Source of the DNA: Bacteroidaceae bacterium | GTDB lineage: Bacteria > Bacteroidota > Bacteroidia > Bacteroidales > Bacteroidaceae | DNA: 45,691 nucleotides | NCBI GenBank assembly: GCA_017526905.1 | Contig: JAFXQT010000100.1 | Span: 1 to 45,691, forward strand | Reading direction: 5' to 3' | Shown: piece by piece, positions 34,762 through 45,691 of the stretch | Layout: every line of letters begins with the position of its first letter | Numbering within the stretch: the first letter of the stretch is position 1 | The notes under the pieces: model-generated | The model's input: the letters and a program-made list of their open reading frames with translations, nothing else | What the model was told of the DNA's origin: nothing | The model's database searches: none | Program-made: the position numbers and the translations under genes

Positions 34762-34970
34762 AGAGTAGAGAGTAAAGAGTAAAGAGTAGAGAGTAAAGAT
34801 ACATTATGATAGCTGTTACATCCGGACATAGCCATGCCACAGGCTTTAAATCTCTCCGCTGCCCGGAGGGGTGGCATGGCTTGTATGCACATAAGCCATC
34901 CCGGTCTCCCATCTCTGCTCTCTACTCTCTACTCTTTACTCTCTGCTCTCTACTCTTTACTCTTATCTCT
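34762..34970. repeat. MITE-like element with low-complexity inverted arms
   Basis: The left arm (34762-34799, agagtagagagtaaagagt and on) is the approximate reverse complement of a longer right arm (about 34913-34970, built of ctctactctttactct units). The core of about 110 bases contains a second perfect inverted repeat (gccatgccac 34831-34840, gtggcatggc 34871-34880). The element starts right after the stop of one lipoprotein gene and runs into the signal-peptide region of the next. Confidence 0.75.
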
Positions 34971-35986: not shown

Positions 35987-36472
35987 ATGAAAGACAAGGC
36001 TACATACGAGAAGCTGTTTCATGAACACTACCGCCCGATGTTCCGTCTGGCCATGACGCTGCTGCACGATGAGGCAGAGAGCAAGGACGTGGTGGGCGAG
36101 GTGTTCGCGCGGATGATGGAGGCCGGACGCACCGAGGGCCGTAGCTATCTGCTCGCGGCGGTGCGCAACCGGTGCCTGAACGTGATGCGCAACCGCTCCG
36201 TCCAGCAACGCATACGTCGGCTCTACCTCCTGGAGCTTGAGGGCGAGACGAAGAGTGCCGAACAGCTTGGCCGCGAGGCACAACTGCTGGAACAGGGCAT
36301 CGTGCAGCTGCAGCCGCCCGTGTGCCGGCAGGTCGTCAGGCTGCATTTCGAGCAGCAGAAGACGTTCCGAGAAATTGCGCTCCTGCTGGGCACCAGCCAG
36401 ACAACTGTGTATAAGCACTTGCGGCGCGCGATGAAGCAATTACGTCAACACCTTAATAATAACGAGATATGA
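35987..36472 (+). CDS. ECF-type RNA polymerase sigma factor
   Basis: A 161-residue sigma-70 family protein from the ATG at 35987 (MKDKATYEKLFHEHYRPMF); a GTG five codons earlier is less likely. Region 2 is FRLAMTLLHDEAESKDVVGE, and region 4 carries the helix-turn-helix (TFREIALLLGTSQTTVYKHL). There is no region 3 and no extension, as usual for the Bacteroidetes ECF group that works with FecR-like anti-sigma factors and outer-membrane receptors. The stop overlaps the next start (ATGA), so production is coupled to the anti-sigma factor. It probably drives this operon and perhaps other loci. Confidence 0.93.
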   Translation: MKDKATYEKLFHEHYRPMFRLAMTLLHDEAESKDVVGEVFARMMEAGRTEGRSYLLAAVRNRCLNVMRNRSVQQRIRRLYLLELEGETKSAEQLGREAQLLEQGIVQLQPPVCRQVVRLHFEQQKTFREIALLLGTSQTTVYKHLRRAMKQLRQHLNNNEI

Positions 36473-37296
36473 ACAACGAACCTAAGACCGACCTCCTGCT
36501 GCGGATGATGGAGCAGCCGGAGCTATACACCGACGAGCAATGGTGCGACATCCTCAGCGACAGCGAGTGTCGCGAGCTCTACACATTGATGGCCATGACC
36601 CATGGCAGCGTCAATGTCGCCAAGGCCGATGCCGCCATGACGGAAGAAGACATCGCCGCCGAATGGGAGAAGGTGAAGGGAATGACGAATGACGAATCTC
36701 GCTTCGCTCGGAATGACGAATCTCGTTGTGCCCAAAGTGCCGAATCTCGCTTCACTCGGAATGACGAATCTCGTTGTGTCCAAAGTGCCGAATCTCGCTT
36801 CGCTCAGAATGCCGAATCCAAATCACCTTCAAACCCTGAAGGTAACTCTTATTTGTCATTCGTCATTCGTCATTCGTCATTCCGAGCGAAGCGAGATTCG
36901 TCATTCCCCAAAATTGCCGCCGTCCTCCTCACCGCCGTCTTTCTCGGCGGCCTGGCTTGGGCGTTCGTTCCTCGCTTCATAACCCCCAAAGCCAATGCCC
37001 CCAAATCCGCAGAGGCGACCACTCCACGCCTTGACGGGGAGCGAGAGGGGGTGCTTCCTGTTTCCTTCAACGACATGCGTCTGGACAGCATACTCTCTGT
37101 GGTGGCTACCCACTACCACCACGCCGTATGCTTCCGTGACAGCAGCCTGCGCGCCCTGCATTTCTATACCACTTGGGACGACAGCCAGCCCATCGACTCA
37201 TTCCTCACTACGCTTGATGAGTTCGAAGGGTTGCGCTTGAGCCGCGAGCGCGACACCATCTTCGTTGAATCTGAAACAGGGGAGGAAGCACAATGA
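36469..37296 (+). CDS. Anti-sigma factor with DUF4974-like periplasmic domain and repeat-built linker
   Basis: A 275-residue protein. The N-terminal 75 residues are helical and presumably bind the sigma factor. Residues about 76-120 are a tandem 8-residue repeat (ESRFARND / ESRCAQSA types). Residues about 129-146 come from inverted copies of the same DNA repeat. One membrane helix follows (about 150-168, IAAVLLTAVFLGGLAWAFV). The periplasmic C-terminus (about 198-270, VSFNDMRLDSILSVVATHYH) resembles DUF4974, the C-terminal part of FecR-type proteins; the FecR beta domain itself is absent, so this is a short form. It overlaps both neighbours by ATGA. It should hold the sigma factor until an outer-membrane protein with an STN domain signals. 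Confidence 0.85.
   Translation: MNNEPKTDLLLRMMEQPELYTDEQWCDILSDSECRELYTLMAMTHGSVNVAKADAAMTEEDIAAEWEKVKGMTNDESRFARNDESRCAQSAESRFTRNDESRCVQSAESRFAQNAESKSPSNPEGNSYLSFVIRHSSFRAKRDSSFPKIAAVLLTAVFLGGLAWAFVPRFITPKANAPKSAEATTPRLDGEREGVLPVSFNDMRLDSILSVVATHYHHAVCFRDSSLRALHFYTTWDDSQPIDSFLTTLDEFEGLRLSRERDTIFVESETGEEAQ
36687..36906. repeat. 24-bp tandem repeat plus inverted copy inside the anti-sigma gene
   Basis: Five contiguous 24-base units (36694-36717, 36718-36741, 36742-36765, 36766-36789, 36790-36813) alternate between two types, gaatctcgcttcgctcggaa and gaatctcgttgtgcccaaag (each plus 4 bases). A 35-base block (36687-36721) recurs as a perfect reverse complement at 36872-36906. The unit length of 24 keeps the reading frame. 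Confidence 0.92.
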
Positions 37297-40200
37297 AAGC
37301 GCGCGCGTTTCTCCTTATTATCTTTATGCACCTGTCAGCCTTCGCCTACGCACAGGAGGCATCCTCTTCGCTTGCTTCGGTCCTCGCCGCCATCCGCGAT
37401 GCGCAGACCGACCAGACCATCCATTTCATGACCAACGAGCTGGAGCACCTGACGGTCGGACGCATACCCAAGGACCTCACCGCCCGGAACGCTGTGGAGC
37501 GGGCCTGCAAAGGGCTGCCGGTGAAAGTGAAGCGCAAGGGGCGGCACATCTTCGTGCAGTACAAGCCGGAGAAGGATTTCACGGGCAAGAAGATCCACCT
37601 TTCGGGCGAGGTGAGGGACGGTTTCCTGGATATGCCGCTGCCTCATGCCCGCATCTCCGTGTTCAAGGCCGACAGCACTCTGGTGGCCGATTCCCTACGG
37701 ATGGTTGTCTTCTACAGGGGTGATATGCGAATTGACAAGGCTGTGTTCAACTTAGATGTGAGCGCTGCCGAACGCGAATATCTGGTGCGCGGGCAGATGG
37801 ATGGCTACGACGACGTGTGGCAGCGCGTCGCCATCAACGACCCCTCACAGGATGAAGTGGATGTGCCTTCGCTGAAGATGCGCAAGAGCACAGCCCGCAC
37901 CATGCGCGAGGTGACCGTCACGGCCACGAAGATCAAGATGTTCTGGCGCGGCGACACACTCGTGTACGATGCCACGGCCTTCCGCCTGCCCGAAGGCTCC
38001 ATGCTCGACGACCTCATCCGTCAGCTGCCGGGCGTGACGATGAACGCCGACGGCGAGATCTTCGTCAACGGGCGCAAGGTCGATGAGCTCCTCCTCGGTT
38101 CCCGCTCCTTCTTCGGTGGCAACAAGAAAGTGCTGCTTGAGAACCTGCCATACTACACTGTCAGGCACTTGAAGGTCTATGAAAAGCAGACCGACCGCAG
38201 TGTAGCTCTTGGCTACGACGTAGATCCCCGTCGCTACGTCATGGACGTGATTCTCAAAGATGAATACAATCAAGGATATATCGGTAATGTGGAAGCGGCA
38301 GGAGGAACAGACGAGCGATGGCTGGGGCGCGGCTTCTTGTTGGGCTTCACCGACAAGTTGAGGTTTACGCTTCTCGCCAACGCCAACAACGTAAATGAAA
38401 GCCGCCACATCGGACAGTCCGACCAGTGGAGTCCCGCCCGTCAGCCCCGTTCACTCCTCACCACCCGTAGCGTAGCCGGGGAACTGAACTATGAGGCCAA
38501 GAACGGGAAGAACAAGGAAATCAAAGAAACCTTCCGTGCCGAGTACACCTCCACCACCGACGATCAGACCATCACCCAACGCACAGAGCGCTTCATCGAA
38601 GGCTGCTCGCCAACGTCCGTAACCGAGTCCTTCAACCGCGCCGGCAACCGCCGTTGGACGCTCAACAACCATCTGGCGATGCGACTGCCCGCATGGATGG
38701 ACGTCTATGCAAACTTCGACTATGCCCAGCGCGACGGCTCCTTCCATTCCGCCTTCGATGAGCAATCCGACAGCCTCAGCATCGCGCAGCGCACCGTCGG
38801 CATCAGCGAGGGCACGAAGTGGAATGCCAAAATCGATGTCCAAGGCAGCGTGAGACCCGGTAAACAGAAAAGTCACATCGACTATTACGTTTCGATGGGT
38901 CATAACAGCGACGAGGGGGAAAGTGCCAGCCACTACCAAACCACGGACTCTCCCCCCGCCCTCCCTGTTAGGGAGGGAGCAGAATGTACTGAGCGGGCGT
39001 CTGTCTCATCTTTAAATTCCTCCTCACTCTTCAATCACAATACGTGGGGAGTTGTGAACCTTGGCTATGGCTATGAGATTGCAAAAGACCTTCACCTGGG
39101 CTTCTCCAATATGCTCTACAAAAGCCACGTACACACCCGCGACTATTTGTATCATCCCGACACATTACTCCTCCCCTCACAACTCGATGCCCTCGAAGCC
39201 ATCACCGACTACGCCAACTCATACGAGAGCCGCAGCGACACGTGGCAGAACGACTTCACCATCCACCTGAGTAAGAGCTCCTATTACATGCACCCGCAAG
39301 TACACATGAGGGTGAACTACGACCGCTGGCGCTTGGAACTGAAGCTACCAGTCTATAGCAACAAGCTCCACTATCAGCGCGGCAAAATCGACACCCTCGC
39401 CCGTCAGAGAATGTTCTTGCCCGAGCCCAAGTTTTGGTTCCGCCACTCATGGAAAGGTGCGCTGCGCGACTTCCAAGCCCACGCCAGCTTCAGACAAAGC
39501 ATGCCTCTCCTTATTGACCGCATCAACTTCCGCGACGACAGCCAACCACTTATCATCAAGCTTGGCAACTCCGACCTGAAGTCCACCGCTGTCACGCACT
39601 TCGACGCCCGTTATTACGACGGCACGGGGCGCAATCAAGGCATGTATAACCTCACCGCCTCCTTCGACTACCACCACCGCGACATCGCGCAGTCCATCGC
39701 CTACACCCCCTACAACGGAGTATATACCTACAAACCCATGAACGTGAGCGGCGCCTACCAAGCCCACGCCAACTTCAGCACCGACCACAATATCGGCGAG
39801 AAGCGCTACTGGTCGTGGCATGTCAACACCGGGGCCGACTGGAACCATGCCAAGGATCATGCCCTGTTGGAGGGGCAGACAGAAAGCCAAGTGAACACCG
39901 TGAACACGCTTTCGCTCAACAGCGGTGCTAACATCCGCTACAACTACAAGACCCTCAACGTCCGCGCCGTGGGCAGCATGGAGTGGCGGCACAGCGAAGG
40001 CCGGATGTACGACTTCTCTACCCTCAACGCCCTCGACTTCAGCTACGGCCTCGAAGCCACCTATACCACCCCCGCCCTCTGCGGAAAGAAGGTAGGAGGC
40101 ATGACCCTCGCCGCCGATGCCTGCATGTACAGCCGTCGTGGCTACGGTTCCGCCTCGCTCAACCGTGATGACTTCGTCGTGAACGCCTCCATCAGCCAGC

Positions 40201-40379
40201 CCTTGCTCAGTGGCAAGCTCATCGTCCGTCTCGATGCCTTCGACTTGCTGCACCAGCTCTCGCCCACCGACTACGTCATCAATGCCCAGGGACGTACCAT
40301 CACCACCTACCGCTCCCTGCCCCACTACGTCATGCTCCACGCCGTATGGCACTGGAACCGCAACCCCAAAAGGAACTAA
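37293..40379 (+). CDS. STN-domain outer-membrane plug/beta-barrel protein 1
   Basis: A 1,028-residue protein with a signal peptide (ending SAFAYA-QE). An STN domain lies at about 27-95 (LASVLAAIRDAQTDQTIHFM, then GLPVKVKRKGRHIFV) and normally relays to an anti-sigma factor. A carboxypeptidase-like regulatory beta domain (about 96-200) and a TonB plug-like domain (about 205-325: RGDTLVYDATAF, DDLIRQLPGVTMN) come next, then a large barrel ending in an aromatic-rich strand (HYVMLHAVWHWNRNPKRN). It lacks a SusD partner nearby. The start overlaps the anti-sigma stop. A palindromic element encodes residues about 552-563, in a presumed loop. Substrate unknown. Confidence 0.88.
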   Translation: MKARAFLLIIFMHLSAFAYAQEASSSLASVLAAIRDAQTDQTIHFMTNELEHLTVGRIPKDLTARNAVERACKGLPVKVKRKGRHIFVQYKPEKDFTGKKIHLSGEVRDGFLDMPLPHARISVFKADSTLVADSLRMVVFYRGDMRIDKAVFNLDVSAAEREYLVRGQMDGYDDVWQRVAINDPSQDEVDVPSLKMRKSTARTMREVTVTATKIKMFWRGDTLVYDATAFRLPEGSMLDDLIRQLPGVTMNADGEIFVNGRKVDELLLGSRSFFGGNKKVLLENLPYYTVRHLKVYEKQTDRSVALGYDVDPRRYVMDVILKDEYNQGYIGNVEAAGGTDERWLGRGFLLGFTDKLRFTLLANANNVNESRHIGQSDQWSPARQPRSLLTTRSVAGELNYEAKNGKNKEIKETFRAEYTSTTDDQTITQRTERFIEGCSPTSVTESFNRAGNRRWTLNNHLAMRLPAWMDVYANFDYAQRDGSFHSAFDEQSDSLSIAQRTVGISEGTKWNAKIDVQGSVRPGKQKSHIDYYVSMGHNSDEGESASHYQTTDSPPALPVREGAECTERASVSSLNSSSLFNHNTWGVVNLGYGYEIAKDLHLGFSNMLYKSHVHTRDYLYHPDTLLLPSQLDALEAITDYANSYESRSDTWQNDFTIHLSKSSYYMHPQVHMRVNYDRWRLELKLPVYSNKLHYQRGKIDTLARQRMFLPEPKFWFRHSWKGALRDFQAHASFRQSMPLLIDRINFRDDSQPLIIKLGNSDLKSTAVTHFDARYYDGTGRNQGMYNLTASFDYHHRDIAQSIAYTPYNGVYTYKPMNVSGAYQAHANFSTDHNIGEKRYWSWHVNTGADWNHAKDHALLEGQTESQVNTVNTLSLNSGANIRYNYKTLNVRAVGSMEWRHSEGRMYDFSTLNALDFSYGLEATYTTPALCGKKVGGMTLAADACMYSRRGYGSASLNRDDFVVNASISQPLLSGKLIVRLDAFDLLHQLSPTDYVINAQGRTITTYRSLPHYVMLHAVWHWNRNPKRN
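38946..38980. repeat. In-frame GC palindrome in barrel protein 1
   Basis: Arms ccctccct (38959-38966) and agggaggg (38970-38977) flank the loop gtt. The 35-base block is identical to 42242-42276 except for the loop (aac there, the reverse complement of gtt). It encodes DSPPALPVREGA in frame. Confidence 0.9.
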
Positions 40380-40384
40380 CAACA

Positions 40385-43300
40385 ATGCACACAGAAATGA
40401 AAACGAGATACCGACTTTTGTTGCTCATGGTCCTGGCGATGCTGCCATGCCTCCCATCCATGGCCGAGGGGGGCGCTGGCTTGACCGCCGACGAGCAGAA
40501 GCAGGGCCAATCCTCTTCGCTCCTGGCCGTGCTCCAGCACATCCGGCAGAGCCAGACGGACTATGCCATCGACATCGCCGCCGACGGCCTTGAAGAGCTG
40601 ACGACCAAGGCCAAGGTCGGGGGGCTGGACGCCGTGACGGCCGTCAGGCAGGCATGCAAGGGTCTGCCTGTGAAAGTGAAGGTGCTCGGCAAGCGCATCT
40701 ACGTACAGCACGAAGGGGTGAAGGTGGTGCGCAAGCTGAAGCTGCAGGGCGTGGTACAGGACATCCGTGCCCACAAGGACCTGATCGGTGCCACGGTGGT
40801 GCTGATGCGCCCCGACAGCACGGTCATCGAGCAGAAGGAAGCCTACCAGAAATATTACGCCGAGGGCTTCTCGTGGGAGACCAGCGAGTTCTCGTTCTCC
40901 GTGCCCGCCCGGCCCGCCAAATACCTCTTCCGCATCAGCCACATGGGCTTCCAAACCACCTACGTGGAGTATGCCATCAACAAGGTAGGCCGGCGCGAGT
41001 ACGAACGCGGTCTGCCTCCCTTCTACCTGGCACCACAGGCCAGCACGATGAAGGAAGTGACCATCACGGCCTCGAAGGTAAAGTTCTATTACAAGGGCGA
41101 CACCATCATCTATAACGCCGACGCCTTCATCCTGGCCGAAGGCTCAATGCTCGACGCCCTCATCCGTCAGCTGCCGGGCGTGGAGATGAAGTCCGACGGC
41201 CGTATCTATCACGAAGGCAAGTTCGTGGACGATCTGCTGCTCAACGGCAAGGAGTTCTTCCGCAACGACCGCAAGCTCATGCTCGAGAACTTGCCCGCCT
41301 ACACCGTCAAGGACATCGCCATCTACGACAAGCAGACCGCCGAGAACGAGTGGCTGGGCATCAAGGACGAGCACTCGCAGCGCCACGTCATCGACGTGCG
41401 CCTGAAGAAGGAGTACATGGTGGGATGGCTGGTGAACGTGGAAGCGGGAGGTGGCCTTAGGGACAACCAAGCGCAGCCCGCTCTAAACGCTAAATCCTCA
41501 ACTTTCAACTCTCCTTACCTCGCCCGCCTCTTCGCCATGCGCCACTCCGACTTCTCGCGCATCGCCATCGTGGCCAACGCCAACAACCTGGACGATGACA
41601 GCAAACCCGGCGAGAGCGACAACTGGCAGCGCGGCAAGACCAACGACCTGCGACGCACCGAGCGCGCAGACATTGGCGGCTTCGTCAGCGACCGCAATCA
41701 GCGATGGGAGGTCTCGGGCAACGTCTCCGTCAATCACCAGCGCACCGAGGGCGCGTCGCGCACCGTGCGCCAGAACTACCTATCCTCGGGCGACACCTAC
41801 GACCACAGCTTCACGAGCCGCACGGGCGAGGACCTGCGCATGGGAGGATGGCTGAGTTTCTACCGCAACTTCAAGAACGTGCGCTGGCACATCGACCCCA
41901 GCCTGAACTACCACCACTTCAACAACAGCTCCGACCTCGCCTCGGCCACCTTCAACGCGCCCGTGGCCGACGTCAGCCGCCAGCTCCTGAACGACCTCTT
42001 CAGTCACAATGCCGCACGCATCAGCCTGCGCGACACCCTCATCAACCGCATCCTGCGGCAAGGTTCAGGCCGCGGTCACACCTGGGACGGCACCTTCCAC
42101 ACCGGAGCCACCATCAAGATCCCGCACACCAACGAGAACCTCCGCCTCGGCGCCGGCATCAACCTCATCGGCAGCGAGGAACGGATGTTCGATAAGCAAG
42201 AGGTTAGAATAGCAGACCCTCAAGACTCTCAAGACTCTCAAGACTCTCCCCCCGCCCTCCCTAACAGGGAGGGAGCGGTTACCTTCGAGGATGAGGGTAC
42301 GCTGCCTTCAACACATTCTACTCCCCTCCCTACAAGGGAGGGGCAGGGGGGTGGGTCTTCCTCCTTCCACCACTACCGCGACAACCACCCGACGCGCGAC
42401 GGCAAGGCCTACTTCAACCTCGGCTACAACATCCCCTTGGGCGAAGGCTGGCGCTCCATCCACGCCACCTACAGCTTCGAGCACCTATGGCAGCATCACC
42501 GCTCAACGCTGTATCTGCTGGAAGAGGCCCCCTATAATCCCCCGGTGGGGGATGAACAGGCAGGCGACCTCCAAACTCCCCCCGCCGGGGGGCTACAGGG
42601 GCCCCTCCCCTCCCTCACAGACTACTATCAGGTGATGGACCGCGCGAACAGCTTCGACAGCCACTCCCACGAGAACCGCCACAAGCTGGACATCAACCTC
42701 GGCTACAAGTTCAACAAAGCATCCTACGGCCAGATATGGACGCTCCTCAACGGCAACATCACCCTGCACCAACAGCACCTCGACTACCAGCGCGGCAGCA
42801 TCGACACCACGCTCTGCCGCACAGCCGTCAGCATCACCATGGACGATAACACCTACCTCGACTTCAAGAACGGCCAGATAGGGATGACCATGGGCATTCG
42901 TCAGACGCTGCCCGAGCTGGAGCACCGTATCGACCTGCGCGATGACACCGACCCGATGAACGTTCGGCTGGGCAACACCCGCCTGCACCCGTCGGTCACG
43001 CCCGACTTCGGAGCCTCCTTCGCCTTACGCTCCAAGCAGGGCTTCCAGCGGTGGGAATGGCACCACGTCCAGACGTTCAACGCAGTGGCCATGGGCTACA
43101 CCTACGACACCCGGACGGGCGCACGCACCTACCGACCCGAGAATGTCAACGGCAACTACACCAGCGACGGCGGCTACACCTTCCACCACAACTTCGGCAC
43201 CGCCCAAAAGGTGAGCATCGACCTCCCCCTGCACCTCACCCTCATCCAGAGTGTGGACATAACGGGAGGGGAGCGTTCCACCGTCCATCGCCTCAACCTC

Positions 43301-43765
43301 TCCTTCTCTCCCTCTGTCAAGGCCGACATCGGCAAGCAGCACTTTGAGTTCACCTGCCAGCCTGCGTGGGACCGCCTCACCAGCGACCGCAGCTCCCCTC
43401 CCCAGGGAGGGGATGGGGGTGGGCTTGACTTCAGCGCCTTCACCTGCCGCACCTCCCTCTCGGCCATCCTGAAGCTGCCGTGGAAGCTGGACCTCTCGAC
43501 CGACCTCAACCTCTACACCCGCACAGGTTATGCCGACGCAGCGCTGAACACCAGCGACTTCGTCTGGAACGCCCGCCTCTCGCGTCCGTTCTTCAAGGGC
43601 AAGTTCCTCGTCCTCATCGACGGCTTCGACATCCTCGGCCAGCTCTCGAACGTCACCCGCGTGATGAACGCCCAAGGCCGCACCGAGACCTACACCAACG
43701 TCATGCCCCGCTACGTCCTGCTCCACGCGGTCTGGCGCTTCAACAAACAGCCGAAGAAACGATAG
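40385..43765 (+). CDS. STN-domain outer-membrane plug/beta-barrel protein 2
   Basis: A 1,126-residue paralogue of the upstream protein, starting 5 bases after its stop. The ATG at 40385 gives the signal MKTRYRLLLLMVLAMLPCLPSMA after a short lead. It has an STN domain (about 40-110, then GLPVKVKVLGKRIYVQH), a regulatory beta domain (about 120-225), a plug (about 230-320: KGDTIIYNADAF, DALIRQLPGVEMK) and a barrel ending RYVLLHAVWRFNKQPKKR. It is longer than paralogue 1, partly because of several palindrome-rich inserts around residues 613-660, 718-741 and 1003-1010, and a Ser/Asn-rich insert near residue 375 (NAKSSTFNSPYLARL). It probably shares the regulatory partner; substrate unknown. Confidence 0.88.
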   Translation: MHTEMKTRYRLLLLMVLAMLPCLPSMAEGGAGLTADEQKQGQSSSLLAVLQHIRQSQTDYAIDIAADGLEELTTKAKVGGLDAVTAVRQACKGLPVKVKVLGKRIYVQHEGVKVVRKLKLQGVVQDIRAHKDLIGATVVLMRPDSTVIEQKEAYQKYYAEGFSWETSEFSFSVPARPAKYLFRISHMGFQTTYVEYAINKVGRREYERGLPPFYLAPQASTMKEVTITASKVKFYYKGDTIIYNADAFILAEGSMLDALIRQLPGVEMKSDGRIYHEGKFVDDLLLNGKEFFRNDRKLMLENLPAYTVKDIAIYDKQTAENEWLGIKDEHSQRHVIDVRLKKEYMVGWLVNVEAGGGLRDNQAQPALNAKSSTFNSPYLARLFAMRHSDFSRIAIVANANNLDDDSKPGESDNWQRGKTNDLRRTERADIGGFVSDRNQRWEVSGNVSVNHQRTEGASRTVRQNYLSSGDTYDHSFTSRTGEDLRMGGWLSFYRNFKNVRWHIDPSLNYHHFNNSSDLASATFNAPVADVSRQLLNDLFSHNAARISLRDTLINRILRQGSGRGHTWDGTFHTGATIKIPHTNENLRLGAGINLIGSEERMFDKQEVRIADPQDSQDSQDSPPALPNREGAVTFEDEGTLPSTHSTPLPTREGQGGGSSSFHHYRDNHPTRDGKAYFNLGYNIPLGEGWRSIHATYSFEHLWQHHRSTLYLLEEAPYNPPVGDEQAGDLQTPPAGGLQGPLPSLTDYYQVMDRANSFDSHSHENRHKLDINLGYKFNKASYGQIWTLLNGNITLHQQHLDYQRGSIDTTLCRTAVSITMDDNTYLDFKNGQIGMTMGIRQTLPELEHRIDLRDDTDPMNVRLGNTRLHPSVTPDFGASFALRSKQGFQRWEWHHVQTFNAVAMGYTYDTRTGARTYRPENVNGNYTSDGGYTFHHNFGTAQKVSIDLPLHLTLIQSVDITGGERSTVHRLNLSFSPSVKADIGKQHFEFTCQPAWDRLTSDRSSPPQGGDGGGLDFSAFTCRTSLSAILKLPWKLDLSTDLNLYTRTGYADAALNTSDFVWNARLSRPFFKGKFLVLIDGFDILGQLSNVTRVMNAQGRTETYTNVMPRYVLLHAVWRFNKQPKKR
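42221..42276. repeat. 9-bp triplication plus palindrome in barrel protein 2
   Basis: caagactct occurs three times in a row (42221-42247), encoding repeated QDS, and leads into the palindrome ccctccct-aac-agggaggg (42255-42273), encoding PPALPNREGA. The position corresponds to the loop carrying the same element in paralogue 1. Confidence 0.9.
42323..42343. repeat. Second GC palindrome in barrel protein 2
   Basis: cccctccct-aca-agggagggg, followed by a G-rich run. It is read in the same phase as the others, giving LPTREG then QGGGSSS. Confidence 0.88.
42537..42606. repeat. Cluster of three GC palindromes in barrel protein 2
   Basis: Three palindromes lie in series: atccccc-ggt-gggggat (42537-42553), cccccc-gcc-gggggg (42578-42592) and aggggcccct (42597-42606). 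Together they encode a Pro/Gly-rich stretch (NPPVGDEQAGDL then PPAGGLQGPLPS) unlike barrel strands, so probably a loop. Confidence 0.85.
43395..43412. repeat. Third GC palindrome site in barrel protein 2
   Basis: cccctccc-ca-gggagggg, followed by atgggggtggg. It is read in a different phase from the LPxREG copies, giving SSPPQGGDGGG. Confidence 0.85.
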
Positions 43766-43932: not shown

Positions 43933-44282
43933 ATGTTTAATTCTCTAAGAACCATCTGTCTGCTCTTGATGCTTCATGTGTCAGTGAACAGTTTCTCCCA
44001 AGGACTCGTCTTCGGCACCGTGCAAGACGCATTCCTGAAGACACCGCTGCCCGAGGCAAAGGTATCGCTGTTGCTGGCAGCTGACAGCACCGTGATCATC
44101 GACTCCATCCCTGTCACCAAGAAATTCAGGGACGACGGCTACTCCGCCTGCTACATCAGCTCAGCAACACCCAGTACTCCGTCAACGCCCAGGGCCGCAC
44201 CGAAACGTGGTATCGCTCCCTGCCGCACTACGTCATGGCGCATTTAGTATATCACAGGAACAAGAATCCTAAAAAGAAATGA
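43933..44282 (+). pseudogene. Remnant of a third plug/barrel gene with internal deletion
   Basis: The 5' part (ATG 43933) encodes a signal peptide and the start of the regulatory domain (VFGTVQDAFLKTPLPEAKVS), aligning with VKDGFLKTPLTDAHVS of the next gene. After about 44125-44150 the homology jumps to the extreme C-terminus of the family, but in another frame: LLHQLSNTQYSVNAQGRTET and then YRSLPHYVMAHLVYHRNKNP, matching the end of barrel protein 1. That frame ends with TGA at 44280-44282, overlapping the next ATG. About 2.5 kb of plug and barrel is missing and the join is out of frame, so the open frame from 43933 ends early at 44247 with a nonsense tail. No functional product is expected. 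Confidence 0.9.
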
Positions 44283-45691
44283 AAAGAAACATCATCACCA
44301 TCATCATCGCCCTCGCCGCCGTATGCGGCACATGGGCGCAGCAACAGAGAGAAATAACCATCACGGGCGACGTGAAAGACGGATTCCTGAAGACTCCGCT
44401 GACCGATGCCCATGTGTCAATATGCAGAGCCGACAGCAGTGTGCTGGTCGATTCGGCAGCGATGTTCACGGCCTACAACCGCGACCTGAGACCGCTGTTT
44501 ACCAAATACTCGGCGAAGGTGACGACCGACGCGAAAGTGCTGCTGATGCACGCCCAGCTGAAGGGCTACGGCGACGTATGGCAACGCGTGAACATCGGCA
44601 GCAAAGAGACAGAGGTGGAGGTGCCGACGATAGAGATGCGCAAGATGCGGGAACTGAACTTGAACGAAGTTGTTGTGAAAGCCACCCGTGTAAAGATGTT
44701 CTACCGGGGCGACACCATCGTCTATGATGCCACGGCATTCCAACTGCCGCAAGGCTCGATGCTTGACGACCTGATACGCCAGATGCCGGGTGTGACGCTG
44801 AACGAGGCGGGCGAGATATTCGTGAACGGACGCAAGGTGGATGAATTGCTGCTTGGTTCGCACTCGTTCATGCGGGGCAACAAGAAGGTGCTGATGGAGA
44901 ATCTTCCGTACTACACCGTGCAGAACATCAAGGTCTACGACAAGCAGTCGGACATGAGCAAAGCACTGGGCTACGACGTGGATCCGAAGAAGTTTGTGAT
45001 GGACGTGAACCTGAAACAGGAGTACCAGCGCGGCTACATCGCCAATGTGGAGGGTGCCGTGGGAACTGAGGACAGATGGCTCGGCCGTGCCTTTGCCCTC
45101 GGCTTCAGCGACCATTACCGCTTCACGCTATTAGGAAACCTGAACAATGTGAACGAGAGCCGCCACATCGGGCAGTCGGGCCAATGGACTCCAGCCTCAA
45201 TGCCAAAGAACCAGCTGACGACAAGAAGCGTGGCCGGAGAGATGGCCTACTACGCCAAGGAGGACAAGGTGAAAAACAACCTGACGGCCTCGTACACTTC
45301 GACAACAGACGTCAGCGAGAGCCGGAGCCGCTATGAGCAATTCCTGCAAGGACTGACGCCCACGTCGCTGACCGAAAGCAGCAACCACACGGGCAGCCGG
45401 ACGTGGAATGCGCACGATGAGTTCACGCTGACCAAGCCTTTCTGGCTCTATGCGGTGGCCGACTTCCGATATTCCAAGAATCACGGCGCATTCAGTTCCA
45501 TGTTCGACCAGTGGACTGACACGCTGACGGCCTCGCAGCTGAGTCGTGGTTTCAACGAGGGGACGGCATGGAGCGGAAGCATGGAGGCGCAGGGTGCATT
45601 CAATGTGGGAAAAAAACAGAAACGTATGAACTTCTACGTCAGGGCAGAGCAACGTGAGAACGAGTCGGAATCGGCCATGAGATACAGCACA
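44279..45691 (+). CDS. Outer-membrane plug/beta-barrel protein 4, 3' partial
   Basis: ATG at 44279 overlaps the TGA of the decayed gene, and the frame stays open to the window end (471 codons). It has a signal peptide (MKRNIITIIIALAAVCGTWA), a regulatory beta domain without a preceding STN domain (ITITGDVKDGFLKTPLTDAH, about 25-115), a plug-like domain (about 135-250: YRGDTIVYDATAFQ, DDLIRQMPGVTLN) and the first barrel strands. Over the plug and early barrel it is closer to protein 1 (DRWLGRAFALGFSDHYRFTL against ERWLGRGFLLGFTDKLRFTL) than to protein 2. Lacking an STN domain, it is probably regulated by but not signalling to the anti-sigma factor. The visible part ends just before the loop that holds palindromes in proteins 1 and 2. 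Confidence 0.88.
   Translation, partial: MKRNIITIIIALAAVCGTWAQQQREITITGDVKDGFLKTPLTDAHVSICRADSSVLVDSAAMFTAYNRDLRPLFTKYSAKVTTDAKVLLMHAQLKGYGDVWQRVNIGSKETEVEVPTIEMRKMRELNLNEVVVKATRVKMFYRGDTIVYDATAFQLPQGSMLDDLIRQMPGVTLNEAGEIFVNGRKVDELLLGSHSFMRGNKKVLMENLPYYTVQNIKVYDKQSDMSKALGYDVDPKKFVMDVNLKQEYQRGYIANVEGAVGTEDRWLGRAFALGFSDHYRFTLLGNLNNVNESRHIGQSGQWTPASMPKNQLTTRSVAGEMAYYAKEDKVKNNLTASYTSTTDVSESRSRYEQFLQGLTPTSLTESSNHTGSRTWNAHDEFTLTKPFWLYAVADFRYSKNHGAFSSMFDQWTDTLTASQLSRGFNEGTAWSGSMEAQGAFNVGKKQKRMNFYVRAEQRENESESAMRYST

Follow-up and report, generated by a model that had tools for sequence, protein, structure and literature searches.

The window, that is, the whole stretch of 45,691 nucleotides analysed here (contig JAFXQT010000100.1 of a Bacteroidaceae bacterium), contains two outer-membrane barrel genes with short palindromic inserts, which are probably copies, lacking the nuclease or reduced to a single end, of a small mobile element whose parent form carries a DUF559 gene. 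A probability of about 0.72 is given to this interpretation of the sequences. Palindromes like these stand on both sides of a DUF559 nuclease gene, a feature missed by the original prediction, which had been made from the letters of the window. The window's own genome, hereafter G000, is a metagenome-assembled genome (MAG) of 2.8 Mb in 104 contigs with a completeness of 79%.

Anatomy of the inserts and of the DUF559 elements

Aligned copies form a polar unit consisting of a head (types A and B, sorted by eye), a palindrome and a G-rich tail such as CGGGGGGAGAGTC. An element end is made up of a G/C-rich palindrome of the CCCTCC-loop-GGAGGG type plus the tail, which ends with GAC/GTC in the window family. 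Many palindromes stand in inverted pairs with their tails outward, mostly 68 to 129 bp apart, with a few pairs at 187, 245, 446 and 451 bp, and the remaining ones are single or form direct arrays. The 446- and 451-bp pairs, located on contigs C66 and C58, respectively, enclose an open frame which is a DUF559 gene (PF04480), and complete copies are about 0.5 kb long, with one DUF559 nuclease gene between two inverted ends. DUF559 copies with palindromic flanks are present in G000 on contigs C66, C58, C76, C49 and C67, and the short copies of this genome have the same ends as its DUF559-bearing ones. On contig C66, the stop codon of the DUF559 gene overlaps the ATG of the A head (ATGA), and that ATG starts the methionyl-tRNA formyltransferase frame, MNTSSQIHPAPSLTGRAGGESSLRIIFMGTPDFAV. 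Two loci of G000 have three to five ends arrayed together, namely L006 (contig C24, 297-529) and L061 (contig C39, 1015-1329), the C39 array being a separate subfamily with CCCTCCTTGAAAGGGAGGG.

The host genes and the inserts of the window are the following:

37293..40379, plus strand: host gene 1, outer-membrane beta-barrel protein, PF14905, 1028 aa
38946..38995 (right limit approximate), minus strand: single element end with tail GACTCTCCCCCCG, palindrome 38959-38977 and an A head
40388..43765, plus strand: host gene 2, paralogous barrel protein, PF14905 (27.7 bits, cut-off 27)
42242..42357, plus strand: complete nuclease-less composite, tail-palindrome-B head followed by A head-palindrome-tail
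42526..42605 (limits approximate), plus strand: second composite of another family, coded EAPYNPPVGDEQ...TPPAGGLQG
43395..43423, plus strand: single palindrome with a G-rich tail, coded SSPPQGGDGGG, end sequence CCCTCCCCAGGGAGGG

The end in host gene 1 is read in frame as DSPPALPVREGAECTE, and the reading frame of host gene 2 is open from 40346 (1139 aa). The stretches 42242-42276 and 42323-42343 had been predicted as separate elements; both palindromes exist, but as those at 42255 and 42324 form one inverted pair, the element is 42242-42357. Its 116 bases are coding throughout (DSPPALPNREGAVTFEDEGTLPSTHSTPLPTREGQGGGS), and it has terminal inverted repeats and no gene of its own, like a miniature inverted-repeat transposable element (MITE). 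The stretch 42537-42606, thought to be of the same kind, is indeed palindromic but is part of the second composite, whose palindromes TCCCCCGGTGGGGGA and CCCCCCGCCGGGGGG are unlike those of the first family, and the palindrome at 43395-43412 is a single end, CCCTCCCCAGGGAGGG, plus its G-rich tail. The left end of the first composite is closest to the DUF559 element of contig C66 (alignment score 66) and its right end to that of C58 (score 78), and the ends of the second insert match the DUF559 element G000:C76:3415 (on the left end, a 36-base stretch with 5 mismatches).

The bracketing was assessed by seeking an inverted repeat between the 300 bp upstream and the 300 bp downstream of DUF559, with a threshold score of at least 14. 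The first sample comprised the DUF559 matches of 61 genomes, 50 of the 70 rows being usable and the other 20 being fragments, weak or near a contig end; 43 of the 50 genes reached the threshold versus 0 of 600 control windows from the same loci. The second sample comprised the best 80 of 573 loci from named genomes, found with an ExDG-containing pattern, of which 77 were testable, and here 54 of the 77 loci reached the threshold versus 3 of 462 controls. The palindrome varies between elements (CCCTCCCTGTTAGGGAGGG, CCCCTCCAAAGGAGGGG, CTCCCCCCGTGGGGGGGAG and others), whereas within any one element the left end matches the right. A draw across the phylum gave DUF559 in 78 of 148 genomes. Outside Bacteroidota, six records picked from 42 matching ones were scored with no control: G/C-rich inverted repeats flank DUF559 in a Pseudanabaena plasmid (score 57; L356, 1201-1500), Sphingomonas (23; L358, 1201-1497) and Deinococcus (20), lower scores were obtained for Synechocystis (10) and E. 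coli (8), and a gut phage contig scored 16 with an A/T-rich type, so that bracketing beyond Bacteroidota is a lead only.

The DUF559 nuclease is Vsr-like, of the PD-(D/E)XK type. When the DUF559 profile was run against the PDB sequences with hmmsearch, it matched 3hrl, "Endonuclease-Like Protein" (E 2.5e-30), and 3r3p, "Mobile intron protein" (E 1.4e-8), the latter match placing the nuclease within a homing endonuclease fold family. Entry 3r3p is presumably the catalytic domain of I-Bth0305I. In the available part of a review, I-Bth0305I is presented as an example of the EDxHD homing endonucleases with a restriction-enzyme-like mechanism (PMC3943268). The ExDG motif is present in all 120 stop-free copies, the named loci among them having been found with a pattern that contains it. 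The proportion of nonsynonymous differences (pN) was lower than that of synonymous ones (pS) in 32 of 32 pairs with 75-99% amino-acid identity (median ratio 0.16, synonymous sites being saturated in many), and the nucleases thus appear to be under purifying selection.

Copies in the window, in its genome and in relatives

The in-frame palindromes predicted in the two barrel paralogues are confirmed as real, in frame and beyond chance. The sequence CCCTCCCTNNNAGGGAGGG is found exactly at 38959-38977, 42255-42273 and 42324-42342, and these three copies are read in the barrel frame as LPVREG, LPNREG and LPTREG, just as had been predicted. The shorter CCCTCCCT occurs 9 times in the window versus 1.5 expected and a maximum of 5 across 100 shuffles; one of the nine, at 2567, lies away from the barrel genes, and another, at 42608, encodes the host residues LPSLTD, which are also present in the relatives G002 and G003, and is not counted as part of an element. 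The genome-wide count proposed with the original prediction gave 38 exact copies of the palindrome in G000 and 77 with at most two mismatches, the reversed-pattern control giving 0. Exact copies were detected in 21 of 37 genomes of the same genus (1 to 68 each) and in 0 of 24 genomes of other genera, 61 genomes being searched, and in a search of 61 genomes of the genus, 42 matched the 116-base element in part or in whole, several of them with copies close to full length. The window element had no match in the plasmid collection, and no Rfam RNA families were found in the window.

In protein 2, the first composite is missing at the same place in G002 and G003, the latter reading CCAGATTCT|TCCTCC; when aligned with these two relatives, it adds a net 108 nt (36 codons). 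A first-family composite is located in G003 at the next loop, where G000 holds the second-family composite; G000 is without palindromes at a third loop, the one after NVEAG, where G002 and G003 have them; and the SSPPQGGDGGG end is common to G000 and G002 and missing in G003. The inserts thus differ between orthologues, and the conservation in all of them that had been named as grounds for rejecting the prediction was not seen. At the place 38946 of protein 1, G002 has no palindrome, yet its loop has other differences as well. Outside the barrels, at C28:28259, three relatives lack the element and the flanks are 97-99.5% identical; as we read the alignment, the element took the place of about 40 bp in G000, the old start codon among them, which changed MKLNILNANGW-LFIELV to MNTASQIHSAPSLTGRAGGESV-LFLELV. 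A copy on the N-terminal side of a TrmB gene is missing in the three relatives aligned, and the loop with the internal TrmB copy is variable in all five relatives.

Neither an ordinary G/C-rich low-complexity feature nor an assembly artefact, the latter having also been named as a possible refutation, is at all a probable origin of these repeats. The ends are G/C-rich, and some copies do lie in short tandem arrays with A/G-rich microsatellite DNA (contigs C24, C64 and C83), but the reversed pattern gave no match, the element recurs across the genus with near full-length copies, related copies stand at different places in many genomes, and presence and absence are clean between closely similar flanks. 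As a separate observation, the N-terminus of a DUF4369/thioredoxin-like open reading frame (ORF) of the window has a microsatellite-like stretch at 34806-34950 coding LYSLLFTLCSLLFTL, and the A/G-rich arrays that adjoin elements on C24, C64 and C83 resemble it.

When 19 barrel proteins were aligned, 19 of the 25 G/C palindromes fell in low-occupancy columns holding 4.7% of the residues, the "surface loop" placement resting on such alignment gaps; of the six outside those columns, three were one CCCGAC palindrome of another type. The pattern fits tolerance at variable loops. The suggestion that the host instead uses the inserts, either diversifying its barrel surface loops or regulating expression through N-terminal or RNA-hairpin parts, and that selection keeps them, is considered unlikely. 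It would agree with the repeated hits in a single loop across paralogues and species (columns 716-758), with one loop being hit by two element families in two species, with the end common to G000 and G002 and with the recurrence of a RecG-type insertion at one place in eight named loci (see below). Recurrence in variable columns is, however, expected from tolerance alone, the composites of protein 2 differ between species, and the same elements are found in cytoplasmic enzymes and at gene starts. What stands of the original prediction is REP/MITE-like, protein-coding DNA (REP, repetitive extragenic palindromic sequence), present or absent between relatives and mostly in variable barrel loops, but it is not specific to barrel genes, and a special tie to surface loops is not supported: of 20 further long frames of G000 that contain the palindrome, 18 could be assigned to a Pfam family, and most of these families are not outer-membrane ones by name.

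Several other features of the barrel genes and their surroundings were noted. In two barrel paralogues of other species, L080:6694-9933 (G018) and L073:2661-5783 (G017), a palindrome end lies near the signal peptide (SAQVTSPSLQGRAGEESS and TNTRPTPCPSLVGRGG, respectively). At 43933-44283 of the window there is a remnant of a third barrel paralogue, whose start (MFNSLRTICLLLML...) resembles the 938-aa gene of G002 (L066:938-3751); its frame stops after 104 aa, and a barrel C-terminus-like stretch, read by eye, comes next in another frame, which suggests an internal deletion. The ORF 36469-37296 contains a repeated in-frame coding stretch, RFARNDESRCAQSAESRFTRNDESR, unlike the palindromic elements, and adjoins an ORF which we take to be sigma-factor-like.

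Insertion sites, mobility and rival explanations

In 39 of the 77 named loci, DUF559 lies within an open frame longer than 250 aa. Pfam was run on 10 of the 13 long-frame carriers located, which were chosen for frame length, and in 8 of the 10 host domains were found on both sides of DUF559: leucyl-tRNA synthetase (four carriers, two sites), methionine synthase MetH (two carriers), HsdR and a type ISP restriction enzyme. DUF559 was listed and no splicing domain was found in any of the 10 scanned carriers, which sets them apart from inteins, and the host protein would carry the insert, with no intron or intein seen. At eight named loci DUF559 is inserted at one and the same place, between DEQHRFGV and MTATPIPRT, in a host presumed to be RecG. 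DUF559 is also fused to gene ends, for example after IspG, after phosphoglycerate mutase and before guanylate kinase (Gmk). These names, like ValRS, IleRS, MetRS, IspF, ArgC, LeuC and others, were assigned by sequence motif and are to be taken as presumptive.

In 37 named loci the DUF559 frame is 250 aa or shorter, and the longest open stretch next to it is co-directed 34 times out of 37 upstream and 33 times out of 37 downstream. At such junctions between co-directed genes, where complete and short copies both occur, the element supplies the start codon of the next gene, an ATG close to the nuclease stop opening a frame that passes through the palindrome into the downstream protein. At 24 of the 31 non-fused loci where the downstream stretch is co-directed and the inverted repeat scores at least 12, that stretch is open through the element end with an ATG ahead. 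At ten junction loci analysed with Pfam (a family for 19 of 20 stretches, none for the upstream stretch of L200 and only a borderline one for that of L202), the upstream and downstream genes differ and no gene is split, as with fucose isomerase and an MFS transporter, or NadA and a tRNA methyltransferase. As for the short copies, 5 of the 18 palindrome-containing frames of G000 with a Pfam family carry one internally (TrmB, HATPase, GH35, Aldedh and ABC-F) and 13 on the N-terminal side, as judged by coordinates; since the 20 frames scanned were chosen as long and open, they give no measure of how often copies break genes. In-frame insertion into unrelated protein genes is thus seen in the window barrels and in these five genes.

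The nuclease genes appear to have moved between loci. Among the 60 nuclease pairs listed, of 78 with at least 70% identity, 16 pairs with identities of 72-90% show no similarity that could be detected in either flank, including L196 with L197 and the C66 element of G000 with L196, L197 and that of G019 C13. Most other listed pairs are plainly inherited in place, four of them being the same gene of one species from two collections. Over 4424 pairs from non-homologous loci, nuclease identity is correlated with end similarity (rho 0.16, reached in 0 of 300 permutations), the mean end similarity being 0.42 for the 72 pairs above 65% identity and 0.21-0.30 in the lower bins. In 37 genomes, with no correction for kinship, the number of palindromes is correlated with that of DUF559 (rho 0.46, p 0.0045) and not appreciably with that of PF01797, the Y1 transposase family (rho 0.08). 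In a genome of another family, two DUF559 genes 95% identical to each other lie about 3.4 kb apart (L160, G037:C135, 3315 and 6767), possibly as a result of recent duplication.

It is proposed that the DUF559 nuclease would cut DNA and that the element would be copied into the break during repair, as with homing endonuclease genes, sometimes with replacement of a target stretch; this break-and-repair copying by a Vsr-like nuclease is suggested because of the 3r3p profile match and the review of EDxHD homing. Short copies might arise by internal deletion and be moved in trans or by recombination, and insertions would persist only where the translated insert is tolerated, i.e. in flexible loops, linkers and protein ends. 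From the sequences, we infer that the nuclease drives the mobility of the element.

A number of findings weigh against this interpretation. Among the named loci, 23 of 77 score below 14, including all eight RecG-type ones and several of LeuRS and IleRS, which may be old and decayed elements; at phylum distance the bracket signal is weaker, with only 12 of 29 loci reaching 14 (no control), one of them with another palindrome type. No DUF559 match was found in G018, a genome about 80% complete whose 68 exact palindrome copies are the highest number among the 37, and DUF559 is present in 6 of the 16 genomes without the palindrome. The in-frame carriers had been selected as long open frames, and in 2 of the 10, one of them a DNA methylase and the other an HsdM-type methylase, only one flank of DUF559 has a host domain. 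Near-duplicate genomes may have entered the permutation test, there being four pairs of nucleases with 100% identity. The copy C28:24241 is also present in G003, so some copies are inherited rather than newly moved, and no clean target duplication was found in four filled/empty comparisons, nor was any target motif. Finally, a role in mismatch repair has been predicted for a Caulobacter DUF559 protein, VsrA (PMC12907096).

The same G018 genome would agree with another explanation, according to which the palindromes are REPs or bacterial interspersed mosaic elements (BIMEs) moved by another enzyme, be it a REP-associated tyrosine transposase (RAYT), an HUH transposase or one not yet identified, with DUF559 as a passenger between inverted REPs. 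The REP-like anatomy, with short palindromes, inverted pairs and a high copy number, is in its favour as well, and it is regarded as rather doubtful, though less so than use of the inserts by the host. Many different palindrome families bracket DUF559, and the nuclease lineage follows the end type at non-homologous loci. The RAYT family PF01797 has no match in G000 and its number hardly follows the copy number; a RAYT as the mover in G000 is rejected weakly on this ground, the MAG being 79% complete. The REP tags GTAG/CGTC were found within 8 bases of the palindrome in 0 of 57 copies, with CTAC on the head side in 10.

Copying by way of the DUF559 nuclease would have wider consequences. There is about an even chance that these are a new class of mobile elements, Bacteroidota-wide and possibly occurring beyond, in which a palindrome-bracketed DUF559 gene enters genes in a translation-compatible way without splicing, either as an in-frame domain of housekeeping enzymes (LeuRS, MetH, IspG, RecG) or by start-codon takeover, and which sheds nuclease-less REP-like copies that become raw material for protein sequence; Rickettsia palindromic elements (RPEs) and other orphan coding palindromes could descend from such elements. 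Neither coding palindromes paired with DUF559 nor start-codon replacement by such elements was found in the searches made of open-licence papers. For coding palindromes of the Rickettsia type, a palindrome-bracketed nuclease is a concrete, testable candidate for the mover. In the parts of two papers available, no mover is named for the Rickettsia elements (PMC2229807, PMC10969869). A candidate function is also offered for DUF559, which Pfam lists as unknown, together with a way of spreading in dense bacterial genomes through a kept reading frame and supplied start codons. If true, this would explain "decorated" N-termini and DUF559-containing aminoacyl-tRNA synthetases otherwise taken for multidomain enzymes.

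Comparison with known systems

RPEs, reportedly described by Ogata et al. in 2000, are among the closest known counterparts by description. According to the accessible parts of two papers, RPEs and the Wolbachia palindromic elements are about 105-150 bp long, form several families per genome and are translated in frame in unrelated conserved genes (PMC2229807, PMC10969869). The elements described here are likewise palindromic and in frame in unrelated genes, and guanylate kinase is a carrier in both cases (by motif here; for Rickettsia, Abergel 2006 as cited in the available part of PMC2229807). They differ in belonging to another phylum, the nearest named records being Bacteroidales, Bacteroidaceae and Prevotellaceae MAGs, and in also supplying start codons at operon junctions. 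R. conorii RPEs end in CGTC, according to the part of PMC3733652 at hand, whereas 0 of 57 copies do so here, 57 of the 77 copies of G000 having been read with their flanks; and the available parts of PMC2229807 and PMC10969869 mention no parent of the RPEs that codes for a nuclease.

With REPs and BIMEs moved by RAYTs, the elements share short palindromes that pair in inverted orientation around a spacer, as well as a high copy number and the occurrence of some copies in frame in genes. Intragenic REPs of several species and CGTC-tagged REPs of Bacteroidetes are described in the part of PMC3733652 seen, so the original statement that no Bacteroidetes counterpart had been described was too strong. 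The differences are that the flanking 8 bases on either side are free of GTAG/CGTC, that RAYT is unmatched in the 79% complete G000, that the bracketed gene is DUF559 and that the window composite is coding throughout. As in MITEs, gene-less short copies have the ends of a longer coding element of the same genome, here the DUF559 elements of C66 and C58 (C76 for the second insert), which would be the autonomous partners; unlike in MITEs, the partner is a nuclease and not a known transposase. The four filled/empty comparisons gave no clean target-site duplication, with about 40 bp replaced at one of them.

Homing endonucleases and inteins, including EDxHD enzymes such as I-Bth0305I, are similar in the profile match to PDB 3r3p, in the conserved housekeeping genes hit and in the dispersed distribution, but here no intron or intein is seen, the ends are short inverted palindromes, and there are many nuclease-less copies and many insertion sites. 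The ShiLan domain of a phage methylase, as presented in the available part of PMC11855218, is also a stop-free insertion that encodes a nuclease and is thought to be translated and unspliced. Its HNH nuclease is out of the host frame, and the text does not contain the word palindrome (PMC11855218), whereas the elements described here have palindromic ends and a DUF559 gene that either shares the host frame or lies next to it.

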